From the IMG/VR virus record IMGVR_UViG_3300037336_000159, positions 1-31,597 of that record: a stretch of DNA of 31,597 nt; one strand, given 5' to 3'. Position 1 is the stretch's first letter. Every line of letters begins with the position of its first letter. The position numbers and the translations under genes are program-made. The DNA comes from a virus. This document shows positions 2,832 through 29,222 of the stretch, one piece after another. The notes beneath the pieces were generated by a model. That model was not told where the DNA came from. It did no database searches and saw nothing but the letters and a program-made list of their open reading frames with translations.

Positions 2832-2837
2832 ATTTTG

Positions 2838-2912
2838 TAGCGGATACAGGATTCGAACCTGTGACCTCTAGGTTATGAGCCTAGCGAGATAGCCAAACTT
2901 CTCTAATCCGCA
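2838..2912 (-). tRNA. tRNA with CAU anticodon (Met, or Ile2 if lysidine-modified)
   Basis: A 75-nt cloverleaf. The acceptor pairs positions 2-7 (GCGGAT/ATCCGC), but positions 1 and 72 are T and T and do not pair. The D stem is GAGA/TCTC, the anticodon stem CTAGG/CCTAG with loop CTCATAA (anticodon CAT), the variable loop 5 nt, the T stem ACAGG/CCTGT with loop TTCGAAT, and the discriminator A. No CCA is encoded. The loop looks like an elongator Met tRNA; tRNA-Ile2 (reading AUA, frequent in AT-rich genomes) has the same anticodon and cannot be excluded. Its 5' end lies 12 bases after the spanin stop codon, so it is probably cut from the late message. Confidence 0.9.
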
Positions 2913-21435: not shown

Positions 21436-22638
21436 TTAAAATGTGAAAAAGTTATTTTTGTTTCCTATTTGGCTAAAAACAGAATACCTTACAGCATCTA
21501 AACAATGATTAAATGCATCTATTGGAGTATTAGACTTTTTATCACTCCAAACATAGTTATTTAGTTCCTTTATAAGATTTAAACTATCGGCATCAATAAT
21601 CAATTCAAAATCTAATAAAACGGCTATACCTGCAATAATAGATCCTTGACCTTTAATAGTTTCTTTAATATTTAATCCGTAATCTTTTATCTCTGTAATA
21701 AGTCGTGGTTCCGCACTATCGGCATAAATTAATGAGTTTCCAGCATGGTGTTTATTTAAAGAAGCTATTTCACTTGTCGTAAGTTTTGGTCTGCAAAAAC
21801 ATTCTTTTATATATATTTTTTTATTATCTAAATCAATAGACGTTTTAATTAATGTAGTCGGATCAATGCTAAAACCAAAATCTTGACCAAATATAGGAAC
21901 TCCGACTTCTTTAAAAGAACCTATTTTCCAATTATTAAATATTACGCCTTCCGCTTTATCTAGCCATCCGCCTAAAACAACATGATTGTATTTATTTATA
22001 TTTTTTATCTTAATTTGTTCAACTTGAAAAATAAAGCTTTCATCTAGGTTGTTTTTGTTTTCTAAGTAAGTTGAATGTATATATGTTGTATTGTCTTTTG
22101 TTTCGGTAGAACCCGATTGAACTCCGCATCCCTCAAAGAAACGTTTATAAATCCAATGTTCCTTAGTGCTTGGATTCATTATTAAAATAACTCTATTTTT
22201 AATTCCCTTTTGACGTACTGATAAATCTATTCTATCAAATGTAGGCTCGTCTGTTAGTTCTTCAGCTTCATCTATTACAAGTGTATTAATACCTTGTAAA
22301 GACTTTAAATTAGCTGTATTATCTTTTGAACCTGTTTGAATACCTCTAAATAAAATTGAATTGCCGTTTTGTTTATTTATTATTTCTGTTTTAGTAATAT
22401 CAAACATAAACGACAAACCTAATAAATCTATTTTTTCCTGAAATTCTGGAATAATTGAAAGGTAAGCAGACGTTAAGGTTTTACGTAAAAATAGTATTTT
22501 TTGATTGTCCTCTAACATTAAAAGACAAAGAAAAGTATTAACGCTAAATGATTTACCCGAACCTCGTCCACCAGTTATTATAAAATACCTACTTTTATCT
22601 AAGATTAAAGATTCATATTTTTTATTAATTGTAAGCAC
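21436..22638 (-). CDS. terL: Terminase large subunit
   Basis: A protein of 400 aa. ATPase domain: Walker A GGRGSGKS (23-30), Walker B LVIDEAEE (120-127). RNase H-like nuclease domain: GQDFGFSIDPTT (D253), IYADSAEP (D307) and DAFNHCLDAVRY (D381). It cuts and pumps DNA into the prohead. The frame has no ATG before the Walker A motif; GTG at 22638, directly after the preceding stop, is the likely start. Family: Terminase_3/PBSX-like by overall pattern. Confidence 0.93.
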   Translation of the reverse strand: MLTINKKYESLILDKSRYFIITGGRGSGKSFSVNTFLCLLMLEDNQKILFLRKTLTSAYLSIIPEFQEKIDLLGLSFMFDITKTEIINKQNGNSILFRGIQTGSKDNTANLKSLQGINTLVIDEAEELTDEPTFDRIDLSVRQKGIKNRVILIMNPSTKEHWIYKRFFEGCGVQSGSTETKDNTTYIHSTYLENKNNLDESFIFQVEQIKIKNINKYNHVVLGGWLDKAEGVIFNNWKIGSFKEVGVPIFGQDFGFSIDPTTLIKTSIDLDNKKIYIKECFCRPKLTTSEIASLNKHHAGNSLIYADSAEPRLITEIKDYGLNIKETIKGQGSIIAGIAVLLDFELIIDADSLNLIKELNNYVWSDKKSNTPIDAFNHCLDAVRYSVFSQIGNKNNFFTF

Positions 22639-26164: not shown

Positions 26165-26368
26165 TTAAATAGTGCCTAAAAATTCAAAGAAATAAACATC
26201 TTCTTTAACCGATTTAAAGTTAAAAATGCAGTCTCTTGTTAAAATTTGAATTGGAATAAACCCATTTGAAACAAAGGTTGATAATTGTGAGAATGCGTTT
26301 TGGTGCGCATCTTTAGAATTTTGGCAGTCATGCTCAAAATTGTTTTTGTTGGTGATAAATAGTTTCAT
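26165..26368 (-). CDS. Hypothetical protein, 67 aa, between helicase and primase
   Basis: A protein of 67 aa (MKLFITNKNNFEHDCQNSKD ending KEDVYFFEFLGTI). A short beta-alpha protein with an FEHDCQNSKDAHQNA helix; not recognised. Its ATG forms an ATGA overlap with the helicase stop and its stop is 1 base before the primase start, so it is co-translated with the replication enzymes and may be an accessory to them. Confidence 0.65.
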   Translation of the reverse strand: MKLFITNKNNFEHDCQNSKDAHQNAFSQLSTFVSNGFIPIQILTRDCIFNFKSVKEDVYFFEFLGTI

Positions 26369-28020
26369 AAAAAATAAAATTTGTCTAATTTAATAATTGT
26401 TCGCTCTATTAAAGAATTTATTGTTCTGTTATTATCGGCTTTAATATCTGGTTTAGATAGAAGCGAAAAATAGCATTTTTGTATTAAAGTTTTTATACGT
26501 TTCAAAAGTCTGCCGTCAAGTTTATTACTTTGATATTGTTGTTTAGGTACCCGATAAAATTTAAACAAGTCAACTATTTGGCTAATCAAAATTTTAAATG
26601 CAAAGTTTATATTTTCATTTCGTGAAATAGTGTACTTATATATTTTTTCAGCATTCGGCGGAGGTATCTTTCTAATTGGCAAAAGTATGTTTTCGCTCAA
26701 TGATTTTGGAGGTTTTGGTTTTGGTATTATTTCGTGTCCACATTCGGGGCAAGCCTGTAAAGATTTAGGATATAAAGCCCCGCAGTTTTCGCAACCGTTA
26801 ATATCAAAAGCATCTTCTTTCTTCATTTTTTCTTTGGCTTCCAACCCAAAAAAAATACGTTTCCAGTCTCGTGTCGGGTCGCTCCATTCTTGGTGTCTAT
26901 CTATGTTACCACCTCCATCAACTAATATAAATGAGTCTTTATATATCAAATCCGTAACACGTCCTCCACGCCCTGCAATTTGAATAAATAAAGAAAGTGA
27001 ACCTATCGCCCTATTTATAATTATAGCTTGTATATCTTGAACGTCTAATCCAGTAGTGAAAACCGCAACATTTAATAGAACGGCATCGTGATTTGATTTA
27101 AACCAGTCCACTATTTCATGCCTTGTATATTCGCTTTCATTAATTGAATCATACATGCGTACGTTATAACCTGCCTCTTTGAATTTAATAAATAGTAAAG
27201 CGTTTATTTTTGCGGAGTTGTTAAATATTAATGTTTTTTTGCCTAAACATAATTTTTCATAATTTAGTAAAACATTAAATACGGCATCGTCTGAACCGTA
27301 TTGCGTGTCCATCGATTCCGCTGTAAATTCGCCATCTGCATCGGTTTTAAGCTTGTCGCTATCAATGTAAGATTCAACAAAAGATATTTCTTTTACCAAA
27401 CGTTCCATTTTTATTAAATCTTCGATGTTTGGCCCGCAAATAATATCATCGTAAATAGATGACAATGTAAAAGGTTTAGACCATTCGTCTACAATTTCAT
27501 CGCAGCATTCAACTTGCTTGTCATGCTTTGTTTTGCAATATTTACATTTATAAAAATAAACACGCTTCATTACTACTGGCGTAGCTGTGCAACCTAATAT
27601 TTTAGCATCCTTAAAATACTCGAAAACCTTGTCAAAAATAAGTATATGGCATTCGTCTGCAATTAATAAGCCGACTTCTTTAAAGAAATAAGGATCTTTT
27701 TTTAGTCTATTGTTAGCCGTTTCAATCATTGCCACATAGCATTGGCTAGAATGATTTAGCTTTTTAACTTTAGATGTAACTGCTTCGCAGGTTACGCCCA
27801 TTTTATTAAGCGTTGCAATTGTTTGATCTACCAGCTCAATTCTATGACAAAGGATTAAAACACGTTTATTAAATTTATCGTTCCAAAGTTTCGCAAGTGC
27901 CGAAAATATTATAGTTTTTCCCCCTCCAGTACTTAATTGATAACAGATTTTGTCATGCTTTTTAAAGGCTTTCCAAATCTGGTTTATATTCTCTTTCTGA
28001 AAGTCAAATAGTGTTATCAT
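26365..28020 (-). CDS. DEAH-type SF2 helicase with two zinc-binding segments
   Basis: A protein of 551 aa. Motif I STGGGKT (30-36), Ia LCHR, motif II ADECH (121-125), motif III TATP (145-148), and motif VI 'FIQIAGRGGRV' in the second RecA domain. Two Cys-rich segments are inserted: CKYC...CC (C159, C162, C172, C173) between the RecA domains and CENC...CPEC near residues 405-430. It resembles UvsW/type III restriction-type helicases used in phage replication or recombination. Its ATG follows a terminator-like hairpin by about 20 bases, which suggests regulated read-through. Confidence 0.88.
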   Translation of the reverse strand: MITLFDFQKENINQIWKAFKKHDKICYQLSTGGGKTIIFSALAKLWNDKFNKRVLILCHRIELVDQTIATLNKMGVTCEAVTSKVKKLNHSSQCYVAMIETANNRLKKDPYFFKEVGLLIADECHILIFDKVFEYFKDAKILGCTATPVVMKRVYFYKCKYCKTKHDKQVECCDEIVDEWSKPFTLSSIYDDIICGPNIEDLIKMERLVKEISFVESYIDSDKLKTDADGEFTAESMDTQYGSDDAVFNVLLNYEKLCLGKKTLIFNNSAKINALLFIKFKEAGYNVRMYDSINESEYTRHEIVDWFKSNHDAVLLNVAVFTTGLDVQDIQAIIINRAIGSLSLFIQIAGRGGRVTDLIYKDSFILVDGGGNIDRHQEWSDPTRDWKRIFFGLEAKEKMKKEDAFDINGCENCGALYPKSLQACPECGHEIIPKPKPPKSLSENILLPIRKIPPPNAEKIYKYTISRNENINFAFKILISQIVDLFKFYRVPKQQYQSNKLDGRLLKRIKTLIQKCYFSLLSKPDIKADNNRTINSLIERTIIKLDKFYFL

Positions 28021-28037
28021 AAATAAATAAATAAATC

Positions 28038-28128
28038 AAAAAAGCCTTATCAGCCTTTCCCGTCTCTGAACTCGGTACTAAGCTAATAAGGCTATCTAAT
28101 ATTTTTAAATCGGCTTAAATTCAGAGAC
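28038..28128 (-). ncRNA. Structured leader with terminator and interlocked stem, upstream of the helicase gene
   Basis: Minus-strand order: a = GTCTCTGAA (28128-28120), b = AGCCTTATTAGC (28093-28082), a' = TTCAGAGAC (28070-28062), b' = GCTGATAAGGCT (28054-28043), then a T-run (28043-28038). a pairs perfectly with a' (9 bp, extendable to 12 with two G-T pairs) and b with b' (12 bp, one G-T). b:b' plus the T-run is a terminator; a' lies in its loop, so the arrangement is a pseudoknot or a steric switch. It fills the 122 bases between the C5 methyltransferase and helicase genes. Confidence 0.65.
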
Positions 28129-28142
28129 TGCCAATTGTTACG

Positions 28143-29222
28143 CTAATATAGGTAAACTTTACTTAGCCATTGTTGGTAAATATTTGATGCAATTTGAGCT
28201 GTCATTATTGGAGGTACCGACATGCCAATAAGATAACCTGGTTTATTGTTTTTAAAATTGTAATCTTTTGGAAAACTGCCAGCTTTTATAATTTCACTTT
28301 TACATAAAGTTCTTTTTTCATCATGCAACATGTTTTTTTCGCCCCCGAGTATTGTATTCAAAATTTTATGTTTCGCAATGTACTTTACTGAAAAAAACTT
28401 TTCTATTTTTTCAATTCTCATAGTAGTTTGACTCATGCAATATTCTGTTTGTAATCTTAAATCGTAAATTTTAGAATAACTTGGAGGTATAGATTGTTCT
28501 CCAATTCCATTTTTTTCAAATATTTCTACAAAAGGTATTTCCTTTTCATTAAAAACCATTTCAATTTTTGGAATCTCTGTAAACATATCAGCATAATGCA
28601 AAAATGGTTTTGCTAAATCTTTACGTAAACAAATAAAGAACAATCTTTCACGTCTTTGAGGTACGCCCATTTTTGAAGCGTCTAACAAAAAGTGTTGACA
28701 ATAATAACCAGCTTTATCAAATTCTGTATAAATTTTACGAACGTATGCTTTAGCTTCTCCCATAAGTAAACCCTTTACATTCTCAGCTACTACAACTTTT
28801 GGTTGCAACTCTTTTGATAAATCAATAAAATCAAAAAACAAAGTATCTAAAACTTGCTCGGCTTGCCCCTCTCTAAATACTTTTTCTTTGCCCCAGTCTT
28901 TTTCTCTATTTCCTGCCATTGAAAAAGAGCTGCAAGGTGGCGAACCGTCTAAAATATCAAGGTTATAAAGTTCTTTTGGTAAGTCTTTTCTTTTGGCAAA
29001 AGTTGTAATACTTTCTAAAAAACTAAATTTAGGATTATGATTTTCTTTGTAAACATCAATCATTTTTTTATCAATATCATTATGTCCAATAACATCAAAA
29101 CCAGCTAATTTGTAACCCATTGTAGAGCCACCCCCACACGCAAAACAACTAAACACTTTGCCTTTGTCCTTTGTAAATACTGCATCTTTTAAAGTCCAAT
29201 TGTAATTAAATTTGTTTTTCAT
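28143..29222 (-). CDS. DNA cytosine-C5 methyltransferase
   Basis: A protein of 359 aa with the ordered C5-MTase motifs: I (VFSCFACGGGSTMGYKLAGF, 23-42), IV with the catalytic Cys (SPPCSSFS, C97), VI (AENVKGLL, 146-153), VIII (VPQRRERLFF, 187-196), and a C-terminal motif X-like GMSVPPIMTAQIA. The recognition domain between VIII and IX is about 90 residues, suggesting a single target. No cognate restriction gene is next to it; probably anti-restriction self-methylation. It forms an ATGA overlap with the preceding 63-aa gene. Confidence 0.93.
   Translation of the reverse strand: MKNKFNYNWTLKDAVFTKDKGKVFSCFACGGGSTMGYKLAGFDVIGHNDIDKKMIDVYKENHNPKFSFLESITTFAKRKDLPKELYNLDILDGSPPCSSFSMAGNREKDWGKEKVFREGQAEQVLDTLFFDFIDLSKELQPKVVVAENVKGLLMGEAKAYVRKIYTEFDKAGYYCQHFLLDASKMGVPQRRERLFFICLRKDLAKPFLHYADMFTEIPKIEMVFNEKEIPFVEIFEKNGIGEQSIPPSYSKIYDLRLQTEYCMSQTTMRIEKIEKFFSVKYIAKHKILNTILGGEKNMLHDEKRTLCKSEIIKAGSFPKDYNFKNNKPGYLIGMSVPPIMTAQIASNIYQQWLSKVYLY

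Follow-up and report, generated by a model that had tools for sequence, protein, structure and literature searches.

The leader of an SF2 helicase gene on the minus strand of the window (the whole of IMG/VR virus record IMGVR_UViG_3300037336_000159, 31,597 nt) appears to belong to a family of structured RNAs that is widespread in Bacteroidota phages and has not been described before. Sequence comparison supports well its structure, the conservation of that structure, its coupling to a promoter and its position as a leader. As to function, we consider it slightly better than an even bet that the element is a cis-acting switch, in which a loop-loop ("kissing") contact between two hairpins, the second of them terminator-like, is the ON state.

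Predicted architecture of the leader

The element lies between a C5-cytosine methyltransferase gene (28143-29222) and the helicase gene, which is followed on its 3′ side by a 67-aa ORF and then a VapE/BT4734-type primase. A first-pass annotation had described two complementary pairs in the order a-b-a′-b′ followed by six Ts, and on the minus strand at 28128-28038 this is what we find. The core of a (GTCTCTGAA, 28128-28120) is complementary to that of a′ (TTCAGAGAC, 28070-28062), the core of b (AGCCTTATTAGC, 28093-28082) to that of b′ (GCTGATAAGGCT, 28054-28043), and TTTTTT (28043-28038) comes directly after b′. Both helices are longer than had been noted, with 11 pairs in a:a′ (28128-28118 with 28072-28062, including a G-T) and 14 in b:b′ (28093-28080 with 28056-28043). 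When a is required to be at least 9, b at least 12 and the tail T-rich, the window has a single instance of the interlocked pattern, and 200 dinucleotide shuffles of its full length have none.

The minimum free energy (MFE) fold of the predicted transcript, computed with no pseudoknot as input, consists of a 5′ hairpin (P1) and the b:b′ hairpin (P2), with a total of -29.1 kcal/mol (z = -3.6), while P2 and its inner stem P3 have -22.1 kcal/mol in the window (Table 1). In this fold, a lies inside the 15-nt loop of P1, and a′ lies inside the apical loop of P2, capped by the CCG/CGG pairing of P3; therefore, a:a′ would be a kissing-loop contact. The earlier proposal of an H-type pseudoknot, or of a switch, thus stands as far as pseudoknot topology goes, whereas a simple H-type stem is rejected, as a is carried in the loop of a conserved hairpin (5/5 pairs of P1 covary) and the contact is between the loops of P1 and P3/P2.

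Table 1. Predicted features of the leader, and the gene behind it, in the order of the minus strand
Feature	Position	Strand	Basis or remark
-7 box TATATTAG (TAnnTTTG, one mismatch)	28143..28150	-	predicted promoter; overlaps methyltransferase stop codon
Hairpin P1	28136-28108	-	carries a in its loop
P1 5′ arm AATTGGC	28130..28136	-	MFE fold; P1 covariation in relatives
a, P1 loop, GTCTCTGAATT	28118..28128	-	
P1 3′ arm GCCGATT	28108..28114	-	MFE fold
A/U-rich P1-P2 linker TAAAAATATTAGAT	28094..28107	-	A/U-rich linker typical of relatives
P2 5′ arm (b) AGCCTTATTAGCTT	28080..28093	-	MFE fold; P2 covariation in relatives
P3 5′ arm CCG	28073..28075	-	MFE fold; P3 covariation in relatives
a′, apical loop of terminator hairpin, AGTTCAGAGAC	28062..28072	-	kissing helix covariation in relatives
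P3 3′ arm CGG	28060..28062	-	MFE fold; first base shared with end of a′
P2 3′ arm (b′) AGGCTGATAAGGCT	28043..28056	-	MFE fold
U-tract of predicted terminator	28038..28043	-	U-run enrichment in relatives
A/U-rich initiation region GATTTATTTATTTATTT	28021..28037	-	
SF2 (ResIII/Helicase_C) helicase	26365..28020	-	gene downstream of leader

Upstream of P1, the leader is predicted to have its own -7 box, of the Bacteroidota type, and to form its own transcription start. The TAnnTTTG box covers -12 to -5 in Flavobacterium psychrophilum (PMC9723704), and applying this spacing to TATATTAG places the predicted +1 at about 28138, two nucleotides ahead of P1; there is no clear -33 TTG in the window. Across relatives, P1 begins 4-6 nt past the box in most copies, which coincides with the predicted +1. 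Generic sigma-70 and terminator scans of the window call neither the -7 box nor the terminator, as the promoter is of a different type and the loop is large. With only 17 nt between the U-tract and the helicase ATG, the earlier argument that no promoter fits in this interval holds. The helicase and primase would thus be expressed by read-through, as had been proposed, but from the element's own box some 100 nt before the U-tract.

Conservation by pairing rather than by sequence

Single-protein and exact-pattern scans of viral contigs for close homologues return no relatives, and a first comparison with isolate phages whose helicases are about 30% identical gives few results. An alignment-based scan of IMG/VR yields 80 helicase loci, the closest being 52-60% identical. 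The leaders of these loci share essentially no DNA similarity with that of the window outside the A/T-rich tail and start region, and yet the a-b-a′-b′ layout recurs with different sequences upstream of the closest homologues (L008-L011; in L012 it is present by eye), indicating that the element is conserved by pairing and not by sequence. The leader of L008 reads GTCGTAC...CCCAGCAA...GTACGAC...TTGTTGGG-TTTTTT, those of L010 and L011 contain GTCGAAG...CTTCGAC, and that of L009 contains ACGGCTAA...TTAGCCGT. Linker letters alone are rejected as a diagnostic, with the pattern TATATTTG-N-AAGAAATTATT having the element at only 14 of 80 matching places.

In the collected loci, a search for interlocked stems that end in a T-rich tail finds 59 matches, versus 1-6 in four shuffles, and the exact TAnnTTTG box accompanies 41 of the 59, versus none in the shuffles. 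Scanning for promoter, P1, kiss and P2 together gives 84 matches (2,049 candidate boxes) versus 0 in one shuffle, while 80 bacterial chromosome loci (1.17 Mb, 1,619 boxes) give two low-scoring matches only, both judged false. The element is found upstream in 47 of the 76 helicase loci examined, and in 30 of the 47 the promoter-anchored scanner places it less than 60 nt from the start; many of the more distant helicase homologues are without it.

Covariance models give a view of the kissing helix that does not presuppose it. Model R1 was built from nine related copies using only P1, P2 and flanks, with a:a′ and P3 left out, and ranks the window element as the top match in the window (24.4 bits). 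In 50 of its 61 distinct matches, the P1 loop can pair with the P2 loop of that copy over 7 nt or more, compared to 4.8% for swapped and 5.5% for shuffled loops. A second model trained without the window (R2) recovers the window element at 39.6 bits (E = 8.8e-5).

MAFFT misaligns these diverse copies, and a model-fitted alignment was used instead. In 21 model-aligned copies, 98.1% of 572 cells are paired (shuffles, 64.7%; slid controls, 39-47%), and 26 of 28 pairs have changes on both sides: 5/5 in P1, 6/8 in the kissing helix, 11/11 in P2 and 4/4 in P3. Eight of these copies are seeds first found by a scanner that demanded a:a′ and are thus not independent for the kissing helix; the others were placed by the model only. 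Covariation of both proposed stems is thus present in related phages, and homologous leaders keep the stems through compensatory changes instead of losing either one, a loss that the first pass had named as grounds for abandoning the element. The loops themselves are variable, with 66 distinct a sequences among 86 copies.

Distribution and downstream genes

The suggested search for the same element elsewhere in Bacteroidota phages finds it, including in Flavobacterium isolates. Among cultured phages, Muminvirus snusmum has three copies, tooticki and mumin two each, and hattifnatt one (by near-identical DNA), while FCL-2 of F. columnare has a copy at 37475 and the Arctic phage 11b at 33621. We find no element in 6H, phi10:1 or the examined 50 kb of phi14:2, where one low-scoring match was judged false, and by covariance model there is none in phi46:1, lotta, P12024S or PF672P2. 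Among 396 Bacteroidota genomes there is no match in the 10 candidates scored per genome, too few to be informative. In ten single genomes, one weak match occurs in a Flavobacterium genome (G047:C4:729143-729219, L278; 46 bits, 77 nt), which could be a truncated copy or chance.

Phages carry one to several copies, and the loops within one phage differ and mostly do not cross-pair. In one genome (G001) with elements at 22577 and 27515, the two P1 loops, GTGAGACG and GTCTCAG, are mutually complementary over 6 nt, and cross-talk between these two leaders is conceivable; other multi-copy phages are without such loop complementarity. In snusmum, the hypothetical gene gp042 overlaps the promoter and 5′ part of one element (MN812235.1 14631-14726; L279 6132-6227) and may be a spurious ORF.

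The genes behind the element are diverse. In a survey that is biased towards helicases by search design, we also observe NUMOD4/HNH and GIY-YIG homing endonucleases, DUF3987, Prim-Pol, DUF6291 and Phg_2220_C/Lin1244-type replication proteins, and others. The earlier description as the leader of the replication helicase is right in that the helicase and primase genes have the element as their 5′ leader, but it is not particular to helicases, as homing endonucleases, DnaD-like initiators and primases follow it as well. A model match at 1515-1625 of L015/L016 lies about 1.4 kb upstream of a helicase that has no adjacent leader, a placement that suggests a leader able to serve an operon rather than the gene itself. 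Although the downstream genes differ, the C5-methyltransferase beside the leader shares 71% identity with its counterpart in Flavobacterium phage tooticki (loci: 28143-29222 of the window and L006 1002-2129), which suggests a mobile methyltransferase cassette.

Two apparent expression platforms

In 95 of 100 copies, 2-31 nt separate P2 from the start codon of the next gene. Five or more consecutive Ts precede the ATG in 67% of the elements that lack a third copy of a (see below), versus 11% of 278 ordinary ORFs of such phages, and this enrichment supports an intrinsic terminator over a merely A/T-rich start region.

In other leaders, a third copy of a overlaps the ATG or lies shortly before it. 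With a minimum length of 6 nt, this is seen in 19 of 103 elements versus 1.3% for swapped copies, the 19 including a few chance matches within genes and reducing to 14, one of them doubtful, when near-duplicates are collapsed; at 7 nt or more, there are 9, versus 0.07% for swapped copies. About 1 in 7 elements has such a copy. A typical true third copy begins 8-15 nt after P2 and ends a few nucleotides from the ATG; by inspection, none follows the U-tract in the window. Leaders in which it lies right at the start codon include L330, L331, L328, L303, L364, L387, L305, L314, L009 and L096. Third-copy leaders often precede homing endonucleases or replication initiators. Their U-runs are weaker, with the longest run being at most 3 in 7/17 versus 4/88 (Fisher p = 2e-4), and together they make up what appears to be a translational class. 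Such a copy ahead of the ATG implies that P1 and the start site are alternative partners of a′, and the occurrence of two expression platforms on one fold, terminator and start-codon masking, argues for regulation.

A model for control of the downstream gene

An attenuator, which the first-pass annotation had raised as a possible role, is the best reading of these data: the stems covary, the second is terminator-like, and the helicase and primase genes lie directly behind the element, with -7 box, P2 plus U-tract, and ATG following in the order of an attenuator. That termination occurs, that kissing acts in the ON direction and that something regulates the choice, we infer from the sequences.

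Under our model, transcription from the TATATTAG promoter would start near 28138, and P1 would fold first, presenting a in its loop. As a′ emerges, P1 would compete for it, a pairing with a′ to form the kissing helix, while P2/P3 and the U-tract could form an intrinsic terminator just ahead of the helicase ATG. In the kissed state, the apical loop would be held on P1 such that P2 could not zip fully or quickly in the RNA exit channel, and the polymerase would read into the helicase and primase; in third-copy leaders, the kiss would keep a′ away from the start site. Were the kiss lost or blocked, P2 would be completed and transcription terminated, or a′ would mask the start codon, and expression would be OFF. 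That a:a′ limits formation of the terminator, as had been suggested, is plausible.

We take the kissed state to be probably the ON state for two reasons: it is hard to make sense of third-copy leaders unless kissing releases the start site, and the guanidine-IV riboswitch, which has the same two-hairpin layout with a terminator stem inside, is an ON switch. The trigger could be the terminated leader RNA, an RNA-binding protein of phage or host, or loss of the 5′ hairpin. An extension that we regard as a long shot is dose sensing, in which the terminated leader RNA of about 100 nt, carrying both a and a′, would pair in trans with newly made leaders of its own gene, with the loops acting as orthogonal addresses. 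If true, rising phage copy number would feed back on replication genes, several leaders of one phage would be kept apart, and phages would have a self-targeted equivalent of the antisense copy control known from plasmids.

The opposite sign, in which the kiss stabilizes P2/P3, deserves weighing first. The leader would then normally be OFF or strongly attenuated, giving a low fixed level of replication proteins until relieved by a phage factor. P2/P3 in the window is indeed strong, and a:a′ and b:b′ share no bases, so there is no exclusion at the sequence level. By a rough reach estimate, the linker allows both helices at once in most copies (median slack of about 39 Å before P3 is counted), with the window at the limit, and across copies there is no correlation between linker length and P2 length. 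A stretched-linker mechanism is thus not required by geometry in most copies, and the kiss could equally strengthen the terminator. What points instead to ON is that the kiss in third-copy elements would free the start site, together with the ON behavior of guanidine-IV as the closest architectural analogue, and we consider terminator enhancement unlikely.

The promoter, structure and terminator form a compact unit of about 101 nt that could itself be the product, a stand-alone small RNA with the downstream gene expressed by rare read-through or from another promoter. The close spacing of the ATG, the free variation of a and a′ and the third copies at start codons all indicate that the gene behind the element is controlled in cis, which makes this explanation improbable, while a trans role of the terminated RNA alongside cis control is possible. 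There is a slim chance that the element is instead an operator bound by a protein, either an autogenous regulator or an RNA-binding protein used phage-wide, an SSB for example. In T4, gp32 represses its own mRNA via a pseudoknot and A+U-rich leader (PMC3014915), and the element likewise combines a pseudoknot with an A/U-rich linker and tail at replication genes; but simple autogeny fails because the genes behind the element are diverse, HNH and GIY-YIG nucleases included, and a common protein would need to read shape and linker rather than the variable loops. A passive role in mRNA stabilization or transcription insulation, with no switching, would fit P1 at the transcript's 5′ end but has no need of the U-tract enrichment in one class or the start-codon complementarity in the other, and is very improbable. 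We also consider DNA-only readings (recombination site, origin hairpin) unlikely, given that P1 coincides with the predicted transcription start and is followed in register by the U-tract and ATG.

The element brings its own promoter, follows a simple sequence rule (the loops need only be complementary) and has two types of output, transcriptional and translational. Throttling of replication and homing-endonuclease genes in these phages may be explained by it, and where phage genomes are poorly annotated it serves as a marker of operon starts.

Comparison with known systems

In Rfam 15, the whole window has only a tRNA at the gathering threshold, and neither the leader region nor any of nine loci that carry strong copies has a relevant match even at relaxed E-value. 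The window has a tRNA-Met (CAT) gene at 2837-2912 (minus strand) with a strong terminator behind it, where our covariance model of the leader gives a weak false match (2794-2923). In the open-access papers covered by our searches, we find no description of a matching element. The STAXI motif, a tandemly repeated pseudoknot, is rejected as an identity, as we observe single units, each with its own promoter, and no Rfam match.

The leader belongs, as judged from its predicted features, with structured attenuator leaders. The pT181 leader controls a plasmid replication protein. In antisense attenuators of this type (PMC3753616), loop-loop pairing is likewise linked to an intrinsic terminator in the leader, but the partner loop is on a separate antisense RNA, whereas here both loops are in one transcript and we came across no antisense gene. 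In the cobalamin riboswitch, the L5-L13 contact (PMC10907184) also joins an upstream hairpin to an expression-platform hairpin and thereby controls expression; there, the kiss hides the ribosome site and needs a large ligand-binding aptamer, whereas the phage leader lacks an aptamer and its kiss would leave the start site exposed. Among phage leaders, that of T4 gene 32 (PMC3014915) shares the pseudoknot and A+U-rich region ahead of a replication gene, but it is a single H-type pseudoknot bound by its own protein, has no terminator and is not used by multiple genes. T4-type homing-endonuclease leaders (mobE, I-TevI; PMC3014915) are also structured and limit expression, but through simple structures that hide the ribosome site, in contrast to the promoter-linked kissing terminator found here, which is common to other genes.

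The closest likeness is to the guanidine-IV riboswitch (GGAM-1 motif), a 5′ leader with two hairpins, the second an intrinsic terminator within the fold, that acts as an ON switch and whose pseudoknot has been discussed as possibly two kissing hairpins; in the proposed mechanism, the rigid kissing hairpins stretch the linker and the outer terminator pairs are blocked (PMC7736828). The leader shares the two hairpins, the loop-loop pseudoknot and, by sequence, a terminator as the second hairpin. Unlike guanidine-IV, which has conserved binding-pocket nucleotides in its loops and precedes sugE and other guanidine genes, it has freely varying a and a′ that form a sequence-variable Watson-Crick helix of 6-11 bp with no evident ligand pocket, precedes helicases, HNH/GIY-YIG nucleases, DUF6291, DUF3987 and Prim-Pol, occurs in Bacteroidota phages and has a second, apparently translational class with a third loop copy. 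Given the other genes and the lack of conserved pocket nucleotides, our sequence comparison places the leader as resembling the guanidine-IV platform but not as a member. It would thus be a minimal guanidine-IV-like platform without an evident ligand pocket, whose natural variants make it testable how kissing hairpins that include a terminator stem yield antitermination.
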